The notes under the pieces are model-generated. The model was not told the DNA's origin. It searched no databases and saw only the letters and a program-made list of their open reading frames with translations. A DNA stretch of 64,000 nucleotides from Paracoccaceae bacterium (GTDB lineage Bacteria > Pseudomonadota > Alphaproteobacteria > Rhodobacterales > Rhodobacteraceae), in the NCBI GenBank assembly GCA_016124615.1, contig WGNF01000008.1:1-64000 (forward strand), given 5' to 3'. Below, piece after piece: positions 1-15,534 of this stretch (the first letter of the stretch is position 1; the number at the start of each line of letters is the position of its first letter). Position numbers and translations under genes: made by a program.

Positions 1-197
1 CCACGGCGCTTCTAGACCGTCTGACGCACCACTGCGAAATCATCGAAACCGGCAACGAGTCCTGGCGCTTCAAAAACCGCGCCTGACCCGCCTCCACTCT
101 GTGATCAGTTCCGTCGGCTCAGGCCCTGATCTCCACGCCGCATAGAGGGGTCAATTTTGGACGCCGATAGGGGGTCAGTTTTGCGAGCCGATTGACA
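1..197 (+). mobile_element. Right end of an IS21-family insertion sequence
   Basis: The window opens inside an IS21-type element. The tail of its IstB helper gene ends at 86, and the terminal noncoding part carries two tandem 21-bp repeats at 148-168 and 172-192 (17 of 21 bases identical, 24 bp apart). Such repeated end motifs are typical of IS21 ends. The element appears to end with the CA of TTGACA at 196-197, matching the TG...CA termini of the family. Immediately after it, an hsdS reading frame begins in mid-protein. The left end, istA and any target-site duplication lie outside the window, so the boundary rests on motif and context only. Confidence 0.75.
3..86 (+). CDS. istB: IstB-like ATPase, C-terminal fragment
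   Basis: Only the last 27 residues are visible, beginning TALLDRLTHHCEII and ending SWRFKNRA before TGA. This matches the usual C-terminus of IstB, the AAA+ helper ATPase that works with the IstA transposase in IS21-family transposition. The gene is partial because the window starts inside it, not because it is visibly broken. Confidence 0.75.
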   Translation, partial: TALLDRLTHHCEIIETGNESWRFKNRA

Positions 198-1010
198 GTT
201 TGGCGTGAAATCGCGATCGGCAGCAAGGGAATAGGCGCGCGGCGCGAGCGCGTTCACCCCAGGCAGGTCCTGAGTTACAGGATCAGTCTCCCGTCTCTCG
301 AACAACAGCGCCGCATCGTCCAGCGTCTGGACACGGTCGCGGCGCTGGTGGCGGAACGCCGTCGCGCCATCGAAGCTGCCGAACGGGAAACCCAAGCCCT
401 GCTACTGAAAGCCTTCCAACGCGCCATCGACGGCGCGCCACTGCGCCCCATGTCCGAAGTCGCCCCCTTGGTGCGCCGCCCAGTCGAAATCGACCTAGAA
501 GGCACCTATCCCGAACTTGGCGTCCGTTCCTTTGGAAAAGGCACGTTTCACAAACCTGATCTACCGGGCGCGGAAGTAGGCAACAAGAAGCTGTTTCGCA
601 TCGATGCTGGTGACCTACTGTTCAACATTGTCTTTGCCTGGGAAGGTGCAGTGGCAGTCGCTCAGCCGGAAGACGATGGTCGCGTTGGATCGCACCGTTT
701 CCTTTCGTGTGTGCCAGCGCCGGACACGGCGACCGTGGAATTCCTTCGCTTCTACTTTTCAACACGCGAGGGCCTGCAGAAGCTGGGCGAAGCGTCGCCC
801 GGCGGGGCGGGGCGAAACCGAACTCTCGGATTGAAGAAGCTCGAGGACCTGGAAGTGCCCGTTCCCTCAATCGAGCGCCAACACTGGTTCGACTGCCTAC
901 AGACACTGGCACGCGAAGCCCGCGCCATCCGCGCAAGCACGGCAAAGGATGTGGACGCACTGATACCGGCCATGTTGCATGATTTTTTCAATGCTACGAC
1001 TGCCGATTAA
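198..1010 (+). pseudogene. hsdS: Type I restriction-modification specificity subunit, 5'-truncated by IS21
   Basis: About 270 residues of an HsdS-like protein, the DNA-recognition subunit of a type I restriction enzyme. The frame enters directly from the IS21 end, so the first target-recognition domain is missing. What remains: the end of domain 1 with the 'SLPSLEQQRRIVQRLD' exit motif, a central conserved coiled coil (about residues 15-70), a second target-recognition domain (about 80-215) with 'LEDLEVPVPSIERQ' at its end, and the C-terminal helix. A TTG at 192 inside the IS end could start translation, but the product would have only one recognition domain. No hsdM or hsdR is visible. Base use is less GC-rich than in the chromosomal core, in keeping with an acquired island. 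Confidence 0.8.
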
Positions 1011-1022
1011 GTTCGGCCACCG

Positions 1023-2177
1023 TTAGGTTCCGTTGACGACGCCGGATGGCCAAAGCTTCGTCTCGGGGTTTGGAGTCCGTTTCCCGGTAGGAAGATCGAA
1101 ACGGACCAATCCATCTTTTCGATTGGCCGCAACGATTTTGTTCAGGTGTGTCGTCCGCACGGGGACCTGCTCCATGACCTCGCTGGCGAGCGTGCTGAAC
1201 GCAATTCCCGGGCGTGCAGACACGGTGCGGAGCATCAGATCAGCAGCCCAGCCCATGTTCGCAGAGCATCCAACCCCATCACGACCGGTCTCAAAAGCAA
1301 TGATCTGATCCTCTGGAAAGAGCTGCGACTGCCCGCTTTCCTCGGTCTGGATGGCATGTCGCGTGCGAACTGCCTCCTTCTCGACCTTTTCTTGAACCGT
1401 CCGGAAGACCTCGACACCGAATCCGCTATGCGTGCCAAGGATCAGACGCATCTTGATCCTATCCTCGCGCGGCTTTCGGATCGCCATGTCCGTCAGATAG
1501 GTCGCAGCCCTCGCTTCTTTCATCTTGGCCTTAAGAAGCTGCAAGATTTTCGTCTCGTTGGAAGCATCGGGCAGCGCCTCGAATGTTGCTTTCCAAGCAG
1601 GGTCCGCAAGAAACCGTCCTACGGATTCTGCGACACCATCCCAACCAGCATGACGGTTCACCTCCTCGGCCATGAAGTTGAACAGGAACTCACCATTCAG
1701 CGCTCGCAGGAAATCAAAAACCTTGCTGGATTCGACATTCCAACCCGTGGGGTCGATGAACGTGAAGGTGAAGCCGTCGCGGCATGCACTGCGGATACCA
1801 TCGAGATTGTCTTCGAAGGATCCCGAGAACACCTTGATGTCAAACTCGGGTTTCTGCGCCGCGAACTGCGTAAGCTTCGCGACAGATGCCGGGTTTCGTT
1901 CGCAGAACCGGAAACGCACCTTGAGGCCTGGCCGCCCCATTTCAAGCAATGACTTGCGCACTGTTTCAAGCGTCTCGATGGCTTGCGAAAACGAAGCATC
2001 CGAATACAAGTTCGTGTCCGACACGCGCCAAGGTCCGGCGAATGCATCAACGAAATTGAAAACCGGTGATCTTCCCTGAAAGAGCTTGTAGGCGGCGGAC
2101 TCGAGATACTTGTTAAGAAACAAATGCTTGATGAATGACTGCTCACGTCCTTGGTAGTTTTCGATCCGAGGCGGCAT
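1023..2177 (-). CDS. tcmP: Three-Cys-motif partner protein TcmP
   Basis: 384 residues starting MPPRIENYQG. The protein matches the TcmP family, always found beside a three-Cys-motif protein. Residues 42-50 (FVDAFAGPW) resemble the AdoMet-binding motif I of methyltransferases, and IDPTGW at 141-146 sits where a DPPY-like catalytic motif would be, so a methyltransferase-type fold is likely but its activity is unproven. Its ATG overlaps the stop of the upstream gene as TGATG at 2175-2179, implying translational coupling. A longer frame extends upstream to 2297 but only overlaps the partner gene, so I chose the coupled start. Convergent with the truncated hsdS. A role in defence is inferred from the neighbourhood. 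Confidence 0.8.
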   Translation of the reverse strand: MPPRIENYQGREQSFIKHLFLNKYLESAAYKLFQGRSPVFNFVDAFAGPWRVSDTNLYSDASFSQAIETLETVRKSLLEMGRPGLKVRFRFCERNPASVAKLTQFAAQKPEFDIKVFSGSFEDNLDGIRSACRDGFTFTFIDPTGWNVESSKVFDFLRALNGEFLFNFMAEEVNRHAGWDGVAESVGRFLADPAWKATFEALPDASNETKILQLLKAKMKEARAATYLTDMAIRKPREDRIKMRLILGTHSGFGVEVFRTVQEKVEKEAVRTRHAIQTEESGQSQLFPEDQIIAFETGRDGVGCSANMGWAADLMLRTVSARPGIAFSTLASEVMEQVPVRTTHLNKIVAANRKDGLVRFDLPTGKRTPNPETKLWPSGVVNGT

Positions 2178-2944
2178 CAAGCTTCCTCTGGCTGCAGGGC
2201 GCGAATGATTGGTTCGGGGACGATCTGCCAAGGAAAGCCGTTCCACTCTTCGCCGTCGAGCAGACGCCCACCCGACTTCGGCCGTGCGCCACCCCACTGC
2301 TTGAAGAAGAACGCCACGTCGTCACGGTCGCAGATGTCACGAAGATGGCGTGCCCAGCTTTCGTCCATGGGCCGAGCCCGAGGCCCGCTCTCCCCCCCGA
2401 CGATGGCCCACGCGACACCCCGCAGATCAACATCCCCGATCGGCCCGAGCAGTGGCTCGAACGAAATGAAGCGTGCGTCGGAATTGATCTGCTTCAGGTG
2501 CTCGATCCGACTCGTGTGCGCGGCGTCCTCAACCGAAACGCCGAGCCAGATGTGGCGAGGGACCGGCCCTCCGTCATACCGCTTCCGAACGTAGTTGCGC
2601 ATGAGCGAGCTTCGCTTGGTCAGCACCTGGTAGACGTGCCAGTCCGCCTGCTCCATGGCATCGAACACCGCGTCGATAAATTTTCGTTCGATGTCTTTGT
2701 GGAAGAGGTCGCTCATCGAGTTGACGAAGATCATCCGCGGCTTTTTCCAGAGCACGGGCTGCTTCAGCCTCGATGACCAGAGTGTCAGGTCGAAGCCCTG
2801 CTCGTAAGGGTGTCCAGCAATCCCGCGCCAGCGCTCTGCGAACCGCTCGGCATAGCAATTGTCACAACCGGGGCCGACCTTGGTGCAGCCCGTCACCGGG
2901 TTCCACGTCGCGTCCGTCCATTCGATGTCTGACTTCTGGGCCAA
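2177..2944 (-). CDS. Three-Cys-motif protein (Gp37/Gp68 family, DUF5131)
   Basis: 255 residues. Near the N-terminus lies 'CTKVGPGCDNCYAE' with Cys20, Cys27 and Cys30, the three-cysteine motif that names the family and suggests a metal or iron-sulfur site; homologs occur in phages and mobile regions as Gp37/Gp68. The start is TTG at 2944, preceded by an AGG-containing ribosome site, and is the only start that keeps the conserved 'SDIEWTDATWNP' N-terminus. It is the first gene of a two-gene unit with tcmP. Biochemical function is unknown; a radical-SAM-like chemistry has the right cysteine style but is a guess. Confidence 0.8.
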   Translation of the reverse strand: MAQKSDIEWTDATWNPVTGCTKVGPGCDNCYAERFAERWRGIAGHPYEQGFDLTLWSSRLKQPVLWKKPRMIFVNSMSDLFHKDIERKFIDAVFDAMEQADWHVYQVLTKRSSLMRNYVRKRYDGGPVPRHIWLGVSVEDAAHTSRIEHLKQINSDARFISFEPLLGPIGDVDLRGVAWAIVGGESGPRARPMDESWARHLRDICDRDDVAFFFKQWGGARPKSGGRLLDGEEWNGFPWQIVPEPIIRALQPEEA

Positions 2945-3327
2945 CTGCTCGCCTCACACTTTTTCCAAAATCTTAGCACGCGAATGACGCGGTACAAAGG
3001 ACGAACAGCGACGCCGTCGGATTATGAACACCGGCGTGCCAAGGCAGCCACTTCGGTCCATTTGTTTGGTCTGTGTCTCGCCCGGAATCCAGTTGGACAG
3101 GCGAAATGATATGAAGGCGCGGGCGAAAAAAACACAGCCAAAGCAATGGCTTATATCTGTTTACCGTATCGTGCGCGGTTAACAGGTCCGGAGAATATCG
3201 GCCCGGAGAGAACGCTTTTCGGCCTTCTGAGGAATGTGCCGGTTAACAGCCCAACCCGCATAACCCCCGAAAACAACGGAAAAATCCGGCCGCGGCCGGA
3301 TCGGGAGAACGCTTTCGCGAGGGCAAG
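2945..3327. other. Gene-free stretch between the island and tRNA-Ser
   Basis: This 383-base stretch lies immediately 3' of tRNA-Ser. It is visibly richer in A and T than the flanking chromosome and must contain the promoter of the three-Cys/TcmP pair, which reads leftwards. I see no convincing open frame, no integrase remnant and no second copy of the tRNA 3' end. Confidence 0.5.
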
Positions 3328-3417
3328 TGGCGGAGCGAGAGGGATTCGAACCCTCGAGACGGTCTCCCGTCTACACACTTTCCAGGCGTGCGCCTTCGAC
3401 CACTCGGCCACCGCTCC
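3328..3417 (-). tRNA. serT: tRNA-Ser (GGA)
   Basis: Read on the minus strand: GGAGCGG acceptor half at 3417, a long variable arm typical of serine tRNAs, anticodon GGA within CTGGAAA, T arm GGTTCGAATCC, and an encoded CCA ending at 3328. The 90-nt length fits a class II tRNA. It decodes UCC/UCU. Its 3' end faces the IS21/hsdS/tcm island, the usual orientation for island integration at a tRNA. The gene symbol is by analogy only. Confidence 0.95.
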
Positions 3418-3492
3418 GTGACGCGGTGTTTACAGGCAGGGGCGCGGCGGTGGCAAGGGGGCGGGGCGAGAAATCGCCGCGGTTTCGACGCC

Positions 3493-5433
3493 TTACACCG
3501 TGATGCGTGAGCCAAGCTCCACCACGCGGTCGCGCGGCAGGTGGTAGAACTCGCTCGGGTCGGCGGCAAAGCGGCTGAGGCCGATGTACAGCCGGTCCAG
3601 CAGCCGGGCCACACCGGCGCGGGCGCCCATGATGACCTTGCGGCGGCCGAGGAAGAACGAGGTCGACATCACGTCGAATTTCAGCCCGACCCGACGCGCG
3701 AGGCCGAGCGCGCGGCTGAGGTTCGGCGTCTCCATGAAGCCGAAGCGCAACCTGAGGCGGGCAAAGTGGTCGTCGATGCGGGTGTATTCGACGCGCTCAT
3801 CCTCGGCGGCCATCGGTACGCGCAGAATCTCCACCGTCAGCAGCACGTTACGGTCATGCAGCACGCGGTTGTGCTTGAGGTTGTGCAGAAGCGCCGCGGG
3901 CACGGCGGTCGGGTCCGAGGTGAGGAAGAAGGCGGTGCCATCGACCCGCTTCACGCTGGAGGAATCGGCGATCGAATGGGCAAAGCCGTCCATGTCGACC
4001 TTCTGCTTGCTTTCGCGCGCCATGATCAGCTGGGTGCCGCGCCACCAGGTCCACATGATCAGCGCGAAGGTGCACGACAGCGCGATGGGCACGTAGCCAC
4101 CTTCGGGGATCTTCATCAGGTTCGACAGGAAGAAGGTGCCTTCGAGCAGGAAGAACGGAATCGCGCAGGGCACCACCAGCCAGAGCGGCAGCTTCCAGCC
4201 GCGCAGCGAGTAGATCACCGCCAGCGTCGTATCGACCAGCATGGCGCCGGTCACCGCGATGCCATAGGCCGAGGCCAGCGCAGACGAGCTGCGGAATGAC
4301 AGCACGAAGGACAGCACCCCCGCCAGCAAGAGCCAGTTGACGGTGGGGATGTAGATCTGGCCGCTCTGTCGTTCTGACGTGTGTACGATCGACATGCGGG
4401 GCAACAGGCCAAGCTGGATCGCGGCCCGGGTCATCGAATAGGCGCCGGTAATAACCGCCTGCGCGGCGATGACGGTGGCGACGGTGGCGAGGCCCACCAG
4501 CAGCGGCAGCGCCCAGCCCGGCACCATCAGGAAGAAGGGGTTGTGCAGCGCGGTGGGATCGGCCAGCACCAGCGCGCCCTGACCAAGGTAGTTCAGCATC
4601 AGGGCCGGGAACACCAGGATGAACCAGGCCATCCGGATCGGGTTGCGGCCGAAGTGGCCAAGGTCGGCGTAAAGCGCCTCGGCCCCGGTCACGGCAAGGA
4701 AGACCGCGCCCAGCACGATGAAGGCGACGACGCCGTGGTGCTGGATGAACTCGATGGCGTAGAGCGGGTTGAAGGACAGCAGAACCTCGGGGTCGCCGAT
4801 CACATGCACCAGCCCGGTCACGCCCATGACCAGAAACCACAGGGCCATGATCGGCCCGAAGGCGGCCGAAATCGCATGGGTGCCGTGGCGTTGCACGATG
4901 AAAAGACCGAGCAGGATGGCCAGCGTCACCGGCAGCACATATTCCCCGAACGCAGGCGCGACGAGGCCGATGCCCTCGACCGCCGACAAGACCGAAATCG
5001 CCGGCGTAATGACCGCGTCGCCAAGGAACAGCGAGGCGCCCGCGATGCCAAGCGCCAGCAGCCAGAGCGACCGCCGCCCGATAGCCAGCCGCGACAGCGC
5101 GTAAAGCGCCAGCACCCCGCCCTCGCCCCGGTTGTCGGCGCGCAGCAGAAACAGCACGTATTTCAGCGTCACGATCAGCGTCAGCGACCACAGCAGAAGC
5201 GACAGCACGCCGAACACGTCGAAGCGCGACACGCCCTGCTCGGCGACCGGGCGCAACGCTTCGCGCAGCGCGTAAAGCGGGCTGGTGCCGATGTCGCCGT
5301 AAACCACGCCCACCGCGCCAAGGGTCAGCGCGGCGATGCTGCTTTTGTGCGCGTCATGATCGGCGGGCGATTCGTCGTCATCGAATTCGGTGATATCGTT
5401 CCCGGCGGGGACGTCACTCAGCTTGCCAATCAT
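3493..5433 (-). CDS. kup: Low-affinity potassium transport system Kup
   Basis: 646 residues, a normal Kup length. The signature 'GAVGVVYGDIGTSPLYALRE' lies near residues 37-56, followed by roughly 12 membrane segments and a cytoplasmic C-terminal domain ending at about 646. The family imports K+ together with protons across the inner membrane. I chose ATG at 5433 (MIGKLSDVP) because GGAG lies upstream at good distance; the frame stays open to 5490 but that extension is basic and has no ribosome site. Stands alone between tRNA-Ser and the alaX group. Confidence 0.92.
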   Translation of the reverse strand: MIGKLSDVPAGNDITEFDDDESPADHDAHKSSIAALTLGAVGVVYGDIGTSPLYALREALRPVAEQGVSRFDVFGVLSLLLWSLTLIVTLKYVLFLLRADNRGEGGVLALYALSRLAIGRRSLWLLALGIAGASLFLGDAVITPAISVLSAVEGIGLVAPAFGEYVLPVTLAILLGLFIVQRHGTHAISAAFGPIMALWFLVMGVTGLVHVIGDPEVLLSFNPLYAIEFIQHHGVVAFIVLGAVFLAVTGAEALYADLGHFGRNPIRMAWFILVFPALMLNYLGQGALVLADPTALHNPFFLMVPGWALPLLVGLATVATVIAAQAVITGAYSMTRAAIQLGLLPRMSIVHTSERQSGQIYIPTVNWLLLAGVLSFVLSFRSSSALASAYGIAVTGAMLVDTTLAVIYSLRGWKLPLWLVVPCAIPFFLLEGTFFLSNLMKIPEGGYVPIALSCTFALIMWTWWRGTQLIMARESKQKVDMDGFAHSIADSSSVKRVDGTAFFLTSDPTAVPAALLHNLKHNRVLHDRNVLLTVEILRVPMAAEDERVEYTRIDDHFARLRLRFGFMETPNLSRALGLARRVGLKFDVMSTSFFLGRRKVIMGARAGVARLLDRLYIGLSRFAADPSEFYHLPRDRVVELGSRITV

Positions 5434-5644
5434 GCGTTTTCTTCTCCGAGCCGCGTGGCCACCGGGGGCCCGCCGCATCCGTTGTTCCATCTCGTCGCAC
5501 AGTAGCGCAAAGATCCGGCTCCGTGTTGCACGCCCGGAAACAGGCGCCGTGTGGCTAGGGTCATTCGACTCGCCCGACAGAGCCGCGGAATATGCGCGAA
5601 ATCGTGATCACCGCAAGGGCGAATGCGTGCTGAGACCATCTGCC

Positions 5645-11401: not shown

Positions 11402-12616
11402 TCAGACGGCCGGCCTTGTGATGGTGATCTGGGTCACGTCGCAGTTACCGCCCTCGAACGCCCCGGCGCAAGAGGTCAGGTAGAGATTCCACATCCGCCG
11501 GAAGCGGTCATCGAAGCCAAGCCGCGAAATCTCGCCCCAGCGGTTGTTGAAGGTGTCAGACCAGCGCCGCAGCGTCTGGCTGTAGCCGTCGCCGAATTCG
11601 ATCGAGTGGCGAACCTGCAACCCGGCGCGGCGGACTTCTTCCCGCAGCGCGGCGGGGGAAGGCAGCATCCCGCCCGGAAAGATGTATTTCTGGATGAAAT
11701 CAACACTCTTGCGGTAAATCTCAAAGCGCGCGTCCTGCACCGTGATGATCTGCAAGGTCGCGTTGCCGCCCGGTTTCAGGCGGTCGCGGACGGTCTGGAA
11801 GTAGGTCGGCCAGTATTTCTCGCCCACCGCCTCGAACATCTCGATGCTGGCGATCCCGTCATAGACGCCGCGTTCGTCGCGGTAGTCCTGCATCTTGATC
11901 TCGACCCGGTCCTGCAGCCCGGCCGTCCGGATGCGGTTCACCGCATAATCGTGCTGCGCTTTCGAGATGGTCAGGCCGGTCACCCGCAACCCGCGTTCGC
12001 GCGCCGCATATTCGGCAAAGCCGCCCCAGCCGCAGCCGATTTCGAGCACATGATCGCCGGGTTGGGCGCCCATCTGGTCCACCAGACTTTCGTATTTCCG
12101 GCGCTGCGCCTTTTCCATCGGCTCCTGCCCGCTATGGAACAGGGCCGAGGAATAGGTCATCGTCTCGTCCAGCCAGAGCCGGTAGAAGTCGTTACCCAGA
12201 TCGTAATGCGCGGCGATGTTCTTTTTTGCCTGCCGCCGCGAATTGCCGTGCAGCCAGTGCCGCAGGTTCTCGAAGGCGCGCACCAATCCCATGCCCGGAA
12301 AGCCGTCGTACAGCGCATCGTTGCGGGCATGCACGAGGTCCATGAAGGCTTGCAGGTCGGGCGTTGTCCACCAGCCGTCCATGTAGGCTTCGAGAAAGCC
12401 CAAATCGCCCTCGCGGATCAGCCGCGCGAAAAGATCGGGGTTGTGCACCTCGATCGCCGCGACCGGTCCGGGGTGACGCCCGTCGGCGCGAAAGGTCCGG
12501 CCATCGTCGAGCACGAAATCGAGCCGCCCATTTTCAAGCGACCGCGCAACCTCGAACACCTGCGCGAAATAGCGCGGCAATCCCGGTTCGCCCTTGGCCG
12601 AAGCAAGAACACTCAT
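11402..12616 (-). CDS. cfa: Cyclopropane-fatty-acyl-phospholipid synthase
   Basis: 404 residues. The AdoMet-binding motif 'VLEIGCGWGG' lies near residue 190-199 and is preceded by the conserved 'HYDLGNDFYRLWLD' stretch. The enzyme methylenates cis double bonds of membrane phospholipid acyl chains; members of this group may also make related methylated or furan-type lipids. ATG at 12616 has a run of G bases 7 nt upstream; a GTG at 12622 is possible. Lies between photolyase and trgA on the same strand, a combination suggestive of membrane and DNA protection from oxidants. Confidence 0.88.
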   Translation of the reverse strand: MSVLASAKGEPGLPRYFAQVFEVARSLENGRLDFVLDDGRTFRADGRHPGPVAAIEVHNPDLFARLIREGDLGFLEAYMDGWWTTPDLQAFMDLVHARNDALYDGFPGMGLVRAFENLRHWLHGNSRRQAKKNIAAHYDLGNDFYRLWLDETMTYSSALFHSGQEPMEKAQRRKYESLVDQMGAQPGDHVLEIGCGWGGFAEYAARERGLRVTGLTISKAQHDYAVNRIRTAGLQDRVEIKMQDYRDERGVYDGIASIEMFEAVGEKYWPTYFQTVRDRLKPGGNATLQIITVQDARFEIYRKSVDFIQKYIFPGGMLPSPAALREEVRRAGLQVRHSIEFGDGYSQTLRRWSDTFNNRWGEISRLGFDDRFRRMWNLYLTSCAGAFEGGNCDVTQITITRPAV

Positions 12617-12664
12617 CGCCACGCCCCCCGTTTGACCCTACATTCCCAAATGCGGGGCCGCCGC

Positions 12665-14077
12665 TCAAGCCCCTCGTTGCGCGTAGGCCGCCAGCGCCCG
12701 CGCCCGCCCGGCGTCAAGCGCCACCAGTGGTGCCGGATAGGGCGCCGCCGGGTCGAGCGCCCAGGAAACCGGCGCCGCCCGGAAATAGTCGCGCGCCTCG
12801 CGGCCGGGCTCGCGCGACAGCTCCGCGATGAAGCGGCGGCGGTATTCGCCGCTGGCGTCGAACTTGGCCGCCTGCGTCGCCGGGTTGAAGACGCGGAAAT
12901 AGGGCGCGGCGTCGGGGCCGGAGCCCGCCACCCATTGCCAGCCCATCGCGTTCGCGGCCGGATCCCAGTCGATCAGGCACTCGGCGAACCACGCCAGCCC
13001 CACGCGCCAGTCGGTCATCAGGTGCTTGGTCAGGTAGGAGGCCGCGATCATCCGGGCCCGATTGTGCATCGTGCCGGTCACATACATCTCGCGCAGCGCG
13101 GCATCGACAAAGGGCTCGCCGGTCATGCCCCGGCGCCAGCGTTCGGCCTCGGGGCTGTCACCGCGCCAGGGGAAGGCGTCCCAGTCCGGGCGCCAGTTCC
13201 GCGTGGCGAGTTCGGGGAAATGGTGCATCAGGTGCCAGGCGAACTCGCGCCAGACCAGTTCCTTCAGGAAATGCTCGGCGCCCCGCGCGCCCTCGTGCAG
13301 CGCGCGCTGACCGGCGTGCCAGATCTGGCGCGGCCCGATCTCGCCCACCGCGAGGTTTTCCGACAGGCGCGAGGTCGCATCCCCGGCGGGAAAATCCCGC
13401 GCCTCGCGATAGCACGCGACCCGCGTGGCAAGGAAGTCCGCCAGCCGGTCCTGCGCCGCCGCCTCGCCCACGCGGGCGTATTGCGCCACGATGGCCCCAC
13501 CGGCCCGCATCGCCTGCCCCAGGTGCCACTCCTCCAGCCGATCACCGTCGGGCCAGACGGCGGGCGGGCGCAACCCGGTCACGGGGGGCGCGGGCAGGGC
13601 GACGGGCCGACCCTTCACCGCATTCCAGTACGGGGTATAGACGCGGTAGGGGCCGCCCTGCCCCGTCGCCACCGCCCAGGGTTCGTGCAAAAGGAAGCCC
13701 GGAAAGCTCTGCGCGTCGATGCCACGGGCGCGCAGGGCCGCCTTGACGGCGCTATCGCGCGCCTTCGCCGCCGGATCGTAGAGCCGCCCCCACCACACCG
13801 CCGTGGCGCCGGTTTCAACGATGAGGCGGTCGAGCACCTCCTGCGCCCGGCCCCGCCGCAGGATCAGCCGCGCCCCAATCCGCTCCAGCCGCGCCGCGAA
13901 AGCCGCAACCGCCGCGCCCCAGCGCCATTTCGGCGCGGCGCCCAATGTCTCCACCACCTCGTCGCAAATCGCGACCGCGATCAGCGGCCGCCCGGTCGCC
14001 GCGGCGGCGGCCAGCATCGGGTTGTCGGCCAGCCGGAAATCGCGGCGGAACCACAGGATCATCGGCGGCGCGGTCAT
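12665..14077 (-). CDS. phrB: Deoxyribodipyrimidine photolyase
   Basis: 470 residues. An N-terminal photolyase domain begins MILWFRRDFRLADNP, and the C-terminal FAD-binding domain contains 'TGTMHNRARMIAASYLTKH' and 'WQWVAGSGPDAAPYFR', classic for CPD photolyases of the class I type. It repairs cyclobutane pyrimidine dimers with light energy. ATG at 14077 follows AAAGGGACGGGA; the longer frame to 14095 is disfavoured. First of the run phr-cfa-trgA-trgB-cysK, 33 bases behind the aminotransferase stop. Confidence 0.92.
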   Translation of the reverse strand: MTAPPMILWFRRDFRLADNPMLAAAAATGRPLIAVAICDEVVETLGAAPKWRWGAAVAAFAARLERIGARLILRRGRAQEVLDRLIVETGATAVWWGRLYDPAAKARDSAVKAALRARGIDAQSFPGFLLHEPWAVATGQGGPYRVYTPYWNAVKGRPVALPAPPVTGLRPPAVWPDGDRLEEWHLGQAMRAGGAIVAQYARVGEAAAQDRLADFLATRVACYREARDFPAGDATSRLSENLAVGEIGPRQIWHAGQRALHEGARGAEHFLKELVWREFAWHLMHHFPELATRNWRPDWDAFPWRGDSPEAERWRRGMTGEPFVDAALREMYVTGTMHNRARMIAASYLTKHLMTDWRVGLAWFAECLIDWDPAANAMGWQWVAGSGPDAAPYFRVFNPATQAAKFDASGEYRRRFIAELSREPGREARDYFRAAPVSWALDPAAPYPAPLVALDAGRARALAAYAQRGA

Positions 14078-14110: not shown

Positions 14111-15340
14111 TTACAGCACCTGATCCAGCGCCCGGATCAGGTGGGCGATCTCATGGGCGCTGGTGTAGTGCACGAAGCTCATACGCAGCACGCCATGCAC
14201 CAGATCAACGCCCATCGCCCCCAGCGGGCGCACGGCGTAGAAATCGCCGCCCCCGGCCATGATGCCGTGCGGCGCCAGCGCCGCCGCCAACGCCTCGCCC
14301 GGCCGGTCGCAGACCACGGCCACCGTCGGCGCCCGATCCTCGGCGCGGCGCGGGCCCAAGAGGCGCACATCGTTGCGCGCGGAAAGGTAGTCGAGCAGCG
14401 GTTGCAGCAGCCGCACCTCATGCGCGCGCATCAGGTCGTGCACCAGCGCGCCCTTTTCCCGCGCGTCCAGCGCGCCGCCGCCGTGATGCGCCGCCTGCAC
14501 GTCGATGTAATCCGCCATCCCGGCGCTCGCCGCGATCTGGGCATGGTCCGGCCCCGCCGGGGTGAAGCGTTTGTAAAGCGTATCGCCGTTGAAGTAGTGG
14601 CCCTGATTGGGCAGCGATTCCCCCAGCGCGCGGCGGATCACCATGATGCCCTGATGCGGGCCATAGGTCTTGTAGGCCGAGAAAAGGTAGATGTCGGTTC
14701 CCAGCGCATCCACGTCGGGCAACCCGTGCGGCGCATAGCTGACGCCATCGACGCAGGTGACCGCCCCCGCCGCATGGGCGATGGCCACGATCGCGGCCAC
14801 CGGGTTGATCTCGGCCACCACATTGGAGCAATGCGGAAAGCAGACCAGCTTGACCTTGCCGTCGGCCAACAGCGGCGTCAGCGCGGCCGGGTCAAGATGG
14901 CCAGTGTCGCGGTCGATGCCCCAGACCCGCACCTCTACCCCTTCGTCGGCCAGACGGCGCCAGACGCCGGAATTGGCCTCGTGGTCCTGATCGGTCACCA
15001 CGATGGCGGCGCCCTTCGGCAACCATTTGCGGAACGCCTGCGCCAGCACGTAGGTGTTGGCACTGGTCGAGGGGCCAAAGCTGACCTCATCCGTGGCGAC
15101 ACCCATGATCGCGGCAAGGCGCGTGCGAGCCTCGTCCATCTCGGCGCCGGCCAGTTCAGAGGCGGCATAGGGCGCGTAGGGCTGCACCTTGCGTTCGCGG
15201 TAGAACCGCGTCAGCCGGTCGAAGACCTGCTGGCAAGGGTATGATCCGCCAGCGTTTTCAAAGAATGCCTGGCCCTGAAGGCTGGCTTGCGAGAAGGCCG
15301 GGAACTGGCTGCGGGTGAAGGAAAGATCAAGGTCGGTCAT
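14111..15340 (-). CDS. Class V aminotransferase, cysteine-desulfurase-like
   Basis: 409 residues. PLP fold type I protein: 'DQDHEANSGVW', 'CVDGVSYAPHG' and 'FSAYKTYGPHQG' (the PLP lysine lies in SAYK) place it with the selenocysteine lyase/cysteine desulfurase-like group. There is no clear catalytic Cys loop, so desulfurase activity is uncertain and an amino-acid or amine substrate is possible. ATG at 15340 follows AAAGGG. It reads in the same direction as phr, 33 bases downstream. Confidence 0.82.
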   Translation of the reverse strand: MTDLDLSFTRSQFPAFSQASLQGQAFFENAGGSYPCQQVFDRLTRFYRERKVQPYAPYAASELAGAEMDEARTRLAAIMGVATDEVSFGPSTSANTYVLAQAFRKWLPKGAAIVVTDQDHEANSGVWRRLADEGVEVRVWGIDRDTGHLDPAALTPLLADGKVKLVCFPHCSNVVAEINPVAAIVAIAHAAGAVTCVDGVSYAPHGLPDVDALGTDIYLFSAYKTYGPHQGIMVIRRALGESLPNQGHYFNGDTLYKRFTPAGPDHAQIAASAGMADYIDVQAAHHGGGALDAREKGALVHDLMRAHEVRLLQPLLDYLSARNDVRLLGPRRAEDRAPTVAVVCDRPGEALAAALAPHGIMAGGGDFYAVRPLGAMGVDLVHGVLRMSFVHYTSAHEIAHLIRALDQVL

Positions 15341-15534
15341 GCGGGAGCCCTTTGCAAAACAGAACGGACGCGCCCGGGAATGCCCTGCCCTTGAGGATGC
15401 GAGGCCCCCGGATTGGCAGGTCTTCCAGCCGAGCCGTTGCGCCCGACACCTGTCGAAACACACCGGCAGACCCCGCGCGAAACGCGGCGTCGCCGCCTTG
15501 GTAGCCTGCGGAACGGCGCCGGTAAAGCCCCGGC

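Follow-up and report, generated by a model that had tools for sequence, protein, structure and literature searches.

We describe here a pair of adjacent genes, coding for a DUF5131 protein and its partner TcmP, in a 64,000-nucleotide stretch of contig WGNF01000008.1 (positions 1 to 64,000; assembly GCA_016124615.1, Paracoccaceae bacterium), which was analysed as a whole and is called the window below. In our reading the pair is a mobile module that modifies nucleic acids and serves in conflict, probably as an island- or prophage-borne immunity, and we give this reading a probability of about 0.4. An earlier note on this DNA had proposed an uncharacterised modification module. The word holds insofar as no functional study of DUF5131 or TcmP was found in the literature searched (preprints not covered), but the pair has a name in NCBIfam and figures in PADLOC as an unproven phage-defence candidate. 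Hence the families, their partnership and the PADLOC candidacy were known already, and what is added here is the position of the pair in an island and its predicted chemistry. The pair, known but uncharacterised, is met in the window in a setting that is both unusual and informative.

DUF5131 is the upstream gene and TcmP the downstream one, with one base in common at a TGATG junction; the genes, the strand and the coordinates had been read correctly from the letters (Table 1). The first protein is a member of Pfam PF07505 with 317.8 bits (gathering cut-off 28.9) and the second of NCBIfam TIGR04474 with 95.1 bits (curated cut-off 53). Among the PADLOC models, DUF5131 reaches 329.4 bits with PDC-M41B and 326.4 bits with PDC-M30B, and TcmP only 30.4 bits with PDC-M30A and 16.2 bits with PDC-M41A.

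The association of the two genes was surveyed in 385 genomes of the class, neighbours being judged by comparing listed coordinates. TcmP passes its cut-off in 29 of these genomes, at 30 places, and DUF5131 in 54; at 29 of the 30 TcmP places a DUF5131 gene lies within about 1 kb, the exception being at a contig end. The earlier note was therefore right that the families co-occur, and the coupling is far beyond chance. Further loci found through TcmP (n = 93, 80 from genomes and 13 from viral contigs) display DUF5131, recognised by its motif, nearby in 88 cases, 83 on the same strand and 5 on the opposite one. Contig ends truncate four of the five remaining loci, which leaves L172 as the one real exception. 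Furthermore, the distance matrices of DUF5131 and TcmP are correlated (r 0.733, n = 77, 0 of 2000 permutations), more weakly in 25 deep representatives (r 0.247, 12 of 5000 permutations). On a tree of 58 DUF5131 proteins, 41 paired and 17 stand-alone (L200, with no match to the motif pattern, was left out), the label paired or stand-alone changes 3 times compared with 14.9 in shuffles; given how few changes are needed, the pairing is old. Strict pairing was seen in Pseudomonadota, Acidobacteriota and Myxococcota.

DUF5131 also occurs without a known TcmP in 24 loci, 19 from genomes and 5 from phages, where the TcmP profile found none within a few kb. These stand-alone frames mostly have 297-432 aa compared with 251-283 aa for most paired ones, with exceptions such as L234 and L235. 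Seven of the 24 loci (L200, L223, L224, L227, L228, L230 and L241) are off the motif pattern, so that the cysteine motif appears looser there, and the stand-alone phage DUF5131 of L061 has C-x7-C. The longer stand-alone DUF5131s of actinobacterial phages (L061, L202, L204 and L205) group on a separate branch of the tree, together with the long-branched bacterial row L231.

The C-x6-C-x2-C site noticed earlier in the first protein is made of Cys20, Cys27 and Cys30. Its conservation, which the earlier note had put forward as a check, was examined in loci fetched by the Pfam profile and not by the motif, and the spacing is kept in 30 out of 30. A fourth cysteine, Cys205, is conserved in 55 of 55 rows, a count that is partly circular as DUF5131 in those loci was recognised by its cysteine motif. 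The canonical spacing of radical S-adenosylmethionine (radical-SAM) enzymes is C-x3-C-x2-C and variant spacings exist in the superfamily; the DUF5131 spacing departs from the canonical one in all 30 profile-found loci. The predicted model of the protein, with a predicted local distance difference test score (pLDDT) of 87.9, shows a radical-SAM (partial TIM) barrel. Among the PDB alignments listed by VIA, which do not cover every family, so that the comparisons hold among those listed, the best is spore photoproduct lyase (4fhf, Z 12.2, 188 residues, root-mean-square deviation (rmsd) 3.0). This enzyme fills the first six rows (Z 11.9-12.2, 188-190 residues) and is followed by viperin-like enzymes (Z 11.3-11.4), SuiB (10.9) and RlmN (10.7). 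By title, and for some rows by the name of the enzyme, the first 26 rows are radical-SAM enzymes. With TIGR04471, radical SAM mobile pair protein A, DUF5131 scores 69.8 bits for a cut-off of 355, which makes it a relative and not a member. We predict from the model that DUF5131 is a radical-SAM enzyme, with a cluster presumed from the three conserved cysteines.

In the case of TcmP, the predicted model (pLDDT 91.4) displays a class I methyltransferase followed by a C-terminal winged helix. The stretches FVDAFAGPW and IDPTGW, already pointed out in the letters, are present, and the residues that stand out are K17, motif I D44-A-F-A-G-P-W, E93 and motif IV D142-P-T-G-W. Y8, K17, D44, E93, D142 and P143 are found in 48 of 48 TcmPs, of which only the conservation of Y8, K17 and E93 is independent since patterns around D44 or D142 had served to find the loci. 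Motif IV reads DPTG in 35 and DPKG in 13 of these 48 loci, which were found partly by that motif, and DPTG in the window. Sequence searches gave no convincing solved relative of either protein. The RlmJ family model in Pfam/NCBIfam does not match TcmP at E<=1, PF22560 (GMT-wHTH) gives 17.6 bits, below its cut-off of 27, and the TIGR04474 profile rings below cut-off in a control genome of E. coli and in the protein of L031, which from its letters we presume to be RlmJ-like. The longest structure alignments listed for TcmP are those with RlmJ, over 211-220 residues (6qe5, Z 13.7, 212 residues, rmsd 3.5), and that with Trm1 (3axs, 237 residues, Z 13.3, rmsd 6.9). The activity of RlmJ needs Y4, H6, K18 and D164, according to the available text of the study (PMC3814359). 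K17 and D142-P143 of TcmP are like in kind to K18 and D164 of RlmJ, being matched by type and not superposed. From the model and the conserved residues, TcmP would be an S-adenosylmethionine methyltransferase acting on an exocyclic amine, adenine N6 or similar, and its winged helix would bind nucleic acid. The two predicted folds, a radical-SAM barrel and an RlmJ/Trm1-like methyltransferase with winged helix, thus lend some weight to the modification module of the earlier note, which had left nucleic acid and small molecule side by side; the former appears favoured.

The setting of the pair was next compared with six genomes of the same genus. In four of them the homology, which runs through kup and tRNA-Ser(GGA), stops at window positions 3325-3328, the 3' end of the tRNA. 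Past that tRNA the DNA is unrelated in three of the four contigs and the fourth (L095) ends 7 bases on; the two other genomes have no tRNA beside kup in the match. The sequence between the tRNA and DUF5131, an island end common to other islands and called X, is not next to the same tRNA in the three genomes whose contigs run past it. As in a tRNA-integrated mobile island, the island of the window has a boundary at the tRNA 3' end and is absent in relatives. The pair is its first cargo, 383 bases past the tRNA, and reads in the same direction as this tRNA. The earlier description as tRNA-bounded is correct for this side; the other side is off the contig because the window begins at base 1 of contig C12. 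A direct repeat of the tRNA end was not found at the far edge of the island, where the contig ends. Elsewhere in the own genome this repeat occurs at only two places, with 2-3 mismatches, one of which is a tRNA-Ser.

The same arrangement is found in other islands. Among 48 further loci searched with ARAGORN, 12 have a tRNA-Ser immediately ahead of the pair; its anticodon is GGA, GCT, TGA or CGA, and the gap to the DUF5131 frame is 290-383 bases. Every tRNA directly before the pair within 0.4 kb, in the window and in these 12 loci, is a tRNA-Ser. Three loci have other tRNAs up to about 2.1 kb away from the pair: tRNA-Thr and tRNA-Gly in L131, tRNA-Met in L140 and tRNA-Arg in L145. The tRNA-Gly of L131 (11190-11263) and the tRNA-Met of L140 (11353-11429) are directly behind TcmP and are perhaps other attachment sites. 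In L103, L118, L128 and L181, X follows the far end, Y, of another element instead of a tRNA, with CTCCGCCA in common, which indicates tandem insertion. The far ends Y of other copies carry CTCCGCCA or differ from it by one mismatch. The copy of Devosia marina, a single or a composite element, covers 20.5 kb, with its X at about 1,098,648 and the end of a Y at 1,119,169; its insertion in the tmRNA was considered and is not supported. In the own genome, two X and one Y (L092 2554-2655 and 13755-13846; C23:900.6-911.9 kb) bound 11 kb without DUF5131-TcmP, the frames of which we read as metabolic and transport genes.

Downstream of TcmP, mostly on the opposite strand, the islands carry restriction genes: an HsdM-type cluster in 8 loci, an HsdS-type in 7 and an HsdR-type in 5, these names resting on one or two members each. 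Other cargo includes GmrSD (L102) and, in L107, an AAA protein together with a type II methyltransferase. In 9 loci of the window's clade a cluster of large serine recombinases lies downstream, with PF00239 and PF07508 in the one member checked; none is visible in the window. Near a tRNA-Ser(CGA) of the own genome (L259 5815-5904; C19:23.2-25.9 kb) there is a large serine recombinase (3231-5441) that is 52% identical to that of the islands over the match and the frame of which stops some 0.4 kb from the 3' end of this tRNA. Serine recombinases of the islands' group may target tRNA-Ser ends; to our knowledge, tRNA-end targeting is unusual for serine recombinases. Window positions 288-3330 are collinear with L180, L101 and L104, copies in other families, at 78-82% DNA identity, and the TcmPs are 86-91% identical across alphaproteobacterial families and orders. 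Such identities, over 3 kb of DNA and between proteins, show recent spread.

Table 1. Features of the window around the DUF5131-TcmP pair
Feature	Position	Strand	Remarks
DUF5131 / Gp37-Gp68 family protein	2177..2944	-	255 aa, TTG start; PF07505
TcmP	1023..2177	-	384 aa; TIGR04474
Island end X, common to other islands	2945..3327		between tRNA-Ser and DUF5131
tRNA-Ser(GGA)	3328..3417	-	island starts directly past its 3' CCA
hsdS fragment, type I restriction specificity subunit	192..1010	+	without N-terminus; convergent with TcmP
IS21-type element end, istB-like C-terminus	1..190	+	cut hsdS; contig start here

The disrupted restriction gene of the earlier note is indeed an hsdS fragment: it matches PADLOC Specificity_I with 289.5 bits over profile positions 128-379 of 382, hence the missing N-terminus. 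A search for the HsdM remainder of this type I system, run without positive control, gave no match in the own genome. As for the IS21 element that had been announced, only the end of an istB-like gene is present, at window positions 1-197; the istB and IS21 labels are our own reading and not a profile match. This end matches the corresponding stretch of L100 at 69.5%, where hsdS is likewise cut by an IS21-type element.

The pair is also carried by plasmids and phages. TcmP matches 16 plasmid records, 10 of them over at least 80% of its length, and in the nine regions opened the pair stands beside mobile, SSB/DUF932/RadC, restriction, DUF3800 or patatin-like genes. On two Sulfitobacter plasmids it precedes DUF932 and RadC genes; on one of these it directly follows an SSB gene and on the other an insertion sequence separates DUF5131 from TcmP. 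In a P. aeruginosa plasmid record (L063), a stretch belonging to a conjugative element has two different TcmPs (11980-13170 and 14163-15497) and, between them, the DUF5131 motif in a short frame of 187 codons (13346-13906). On a Pseudochrobactrum plasmid (L194 4168-8905) the pair has a LexA-type repressor and a restriction endonuclease as neighbours; the stretch is prophage-like, with RecT and a nuclease.

In phage records DUF5131 has 160 matches and the window's TcmP a single one. In Gordonia phage Easley, TcmP gp39 (187 bits) adjoins DUF5131 gp38 between the integrase and the immunity repressor. Used as a query, Easley gp39 matches 13 phage records; the idea that phages lack TcmP was ruled out by these divergent copies. 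Bosnia, Angelique and Jablanski have the layout of Easley, two genes separating TcmP from the next regulator in Jablanski, and the DUF5131 motif lies beside TcmP in all three. The TcmPs of Bosnia, Angelique and Jablanski are still found at E 2e-34 or better by a TcmP profile from which the rows of Easley and Bosnia were left out. In TuertoX and Lamberg, with repressor regions 96.7% identical to that of Bosnia, and in Pollux (91.3%), this slot is taken by other genes; its content is variable. Phage DUF5131s without TcmP were found near DNA methylase, HNH or recombination genes in the three records opened. In the Gordonia phage CarolAnn, two cargo genes that are expressed together with the repressor have been shown by experiment to act as a defence, one of another kind, as described in the available text (PMC6426606). 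Together, the tRNA-Ser islands with restriction genes and this phage immunity slot agree with the part that the earlier note had suggested for the pair in defence or in the life of a mobile element.

The pair could work as one two-enzyme nucleic-acid modification module carried as cargo of mobile elements, DUF5131 providing a radical-SAM step and TcmP a methyltransferase step with an active site of the exocyclic-amine type. Both would act on the same substrate, as suggested by the coupling and the correlated divergence, either in sequence or with TcmP positioning the substrate for DUF5131. The modification would block incoming phages rather than mark the element as self, given the distant Gordonia pairs near the immunity repressor and the restriction-gene neighbours. 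A bolder form of this proposal, which we regard as doubtful, is that the pair writes an undescribed compound base modification, combining radical chemistry with amino-methylation; this nuclease-free immunity would spread through tRNA-Ser islands, conjugative elements and temperate phages, the phages keeping it beside their immunity repressor.

Several observations weigh against the pair being such a module. Foldseek gave the DUF5131 model no match at E<=0.001, its first row being PRMT5 (6.5e-3) and spore photoproduct lyase coming at 1.3e-2; for this reason the radical-SAM fold is a prediction and not a proof. Many methyltransferases, small-molecule ones included, tie with TcmP at Z 13-15, its motif IV is DPTG and not DPPY, and the sequence link to RlmJ is weak (hhalign E 0.0094, probability 4%). 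A second class of TcmP has LDQxG instead of DPxG in motif IV, so that its chemistry may differ. This class is made of ten loci (L002, L004, L006, L010, L014, L015, L017, L018, L020 and L021), without L005, L011 and L063_14163, where the pattern matched by chance at least for L005 and L011; DUF5131 adjoins in nine and the tenth, L018, is at a contig end. DNA bounded by X and Y without the pair exists (own genome C23, L092), which rules out the pair as the constant core of the tRNA-Ser element; as these ends also carry other cargo, the pair is itself cargo and not a mobility gene. Moreover, neither gene of the pair codes for a known defence effector. At 52 loci beyond the window's clade, 148 nearest neighbours were gathered and 141 scanned, 133 together and 8 large ones apart, 7 being left out for size or membership in the window's clade. 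Among the 133, the highest count of any Pfam family is 4 (SSB), LepA-type housekeeping families occur, and PADLOC families match one or two of them each. Three of the eight large neighbours resemble DISARM, DISARM/type IIG or PD-Lambda-4 proteins and five match nothing. Known defence neighbours are thus a minority there, and since these counts have no baseline we claim no enrichment. With regard to the housekeeping contexts that the earlier note had proposed to survey, the window's clade lies in islands but elsewhere the neighbourhoods are mixed, housekeeping included.

Pairs beside DISARM-like (DrmD, DrmMI) and PD-Lambda-4 genes were seen in L138 (11325-14402), L143 (3-3419) and L152 (3333-7091). 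In the literature, TcmP (SMa2243) appears beside Hna in an expression table (PMC12445080) and is listed in a prophage table (PMC12429752), in the available parts of both papers. Within the available part of a study of a 100-strain P. aeruginosa panel, PDC-M30 is predicted in 32 strains, 68.8% of which are phage-resistant, a correlation only (PMC10855318).

Among the other explanations, the pair might modify the DNA of the element that carries it, which host restriction would then spare on entry, or help this element to establish. The Sulfitobacter plasmid pairs before DUF932 and RadC genes, one of them after SSB and the other with an insertion sequence inside, would fit this, as would the P. 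aeruginosa conjugative-element stretch with two TcmPs around a DUF5131 motif frame, the SSB genes in 4 of 133 neighbours, and the TcmP-less phage DUF5131s near DNA methylase, HNH or recombination genes. However, the Gordonia pair sits in the repressor-side module and not among early lytic genes, and several islands have their own HsdM, which would already protect them; we hold this protection of own DNA to be rather unlikely. An action on tRNA or rRNA, perhaps tRNA-Ser itself, that shields translation from a phage or toxin or tunes it, seems to us more unlikely still. It would agree with RlmJ (23S rRNA) and Trm1 (tRNA) as longest methyltransferase alignments, with RlmN among the DUF5131 alignments (Z 10.7) and with a tRNA-Ser as the only tRNA found directly before the pair. 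Yet the link to tRNA-Ser is accounted for by integration at the shared 3' end, L131, L140 and L145 have other tRNAs within about 2.1 kb, and the opened plasmid and phage pairs are annotated without a tRNA gene, though PLSDB lists no RNA genes.

The six leading rows of DUF5131 (Z 11.9-12.2) would also suit a repair enzyme like spore photoproduct lyase that reverses DNA damage with the help of a targeting partner. This is improbable in our view, as radical-SAM enzymes such as the viperin-like ones (Z 11.4) and SuiB (10.9) have the same barrel, function does not follow from a fold, and the methyltransferase partner is left unexplained. We give least credence to DUF5131 making a modified nucleotide that stops phage polymerases, with TcmP finishing or sensing it: viperin-like enzymes are the second group of alignments (Z 11.3-11.4), but TcmP resembles a polymer-acting methyltransferase with a winged helix and a nucleotide kinase is absent among the 25 most frequent neighbour families. 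Finally, that the pair merely rides islands with no part in conflict could be argued from the X/Y ends that bound other cargo (L092) and from the mixed neighbourhoods outside the window's clade; it appears very improbable, since strict pairing in Pseudomonadota, Acidobacteriota and Myxococcota and the kept cysteines need selection. In light of these comparisons, we keep a mobile nucleic-acid-modifying module used in conflict as our reading of the pair.

Both families are fairly frequent in the class without a function found in print in the literature searched. If the pair does set a new nucleic-acid mark against phages, radical-SAM plus methyltransferase chemistry would be added to bacterial immunity. 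The temperate Gordonia phages that carry it, which can already be grown in the laboratory, are a ready genetic test system, and in Alphaproteobacteria defence cargo can be sought in tRNA-Ser islands.

Among the known systems closest to the pair, PDC-M30 and PDC-M41 of PADLOC are unproven: as far as the A and B models go, they too are made of two genes, and DUF5131 reaches 326-329 bits with both B models, but the window's TcmP is weak with the A models and is therefore a divergent type of partner. These PDC systems are predictions from 'guilt-by-embedding', as far as the available text goes (PMC10855318). With TIGR04474 and PF07505 there is no difference in definition, as both proteins are over the curated cut-offs and the NCBIfam name already states the partnership. 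TcmP resembles RlmJ, the 23S rRNA m6A2030 methyltransferase, in its Rossmann fold, a conserved Lys close to the N-terminus and the Asp-Pro of motif IV, but differs from it by DPTGW instead of DPPY, an extra C-terminal winged helix and an identity of about 11%. Likewise, spore photoproduct lyase is the best solved alignment of DUF5131 (4fhf), from which the latter differs by 9% identity, C-x6-C-x2-C and a methyltransferase partner. CarolAnn gp43/gp44 resemble the pair as a two-gene cargo beside the immunity repressor of a temperate Gordonia phage; in the available description (PMC6426606) the proteins are RexAB-like with a membrane protein, and on this description, not on sequence, they are set apart from the pair and rejected as the same system.

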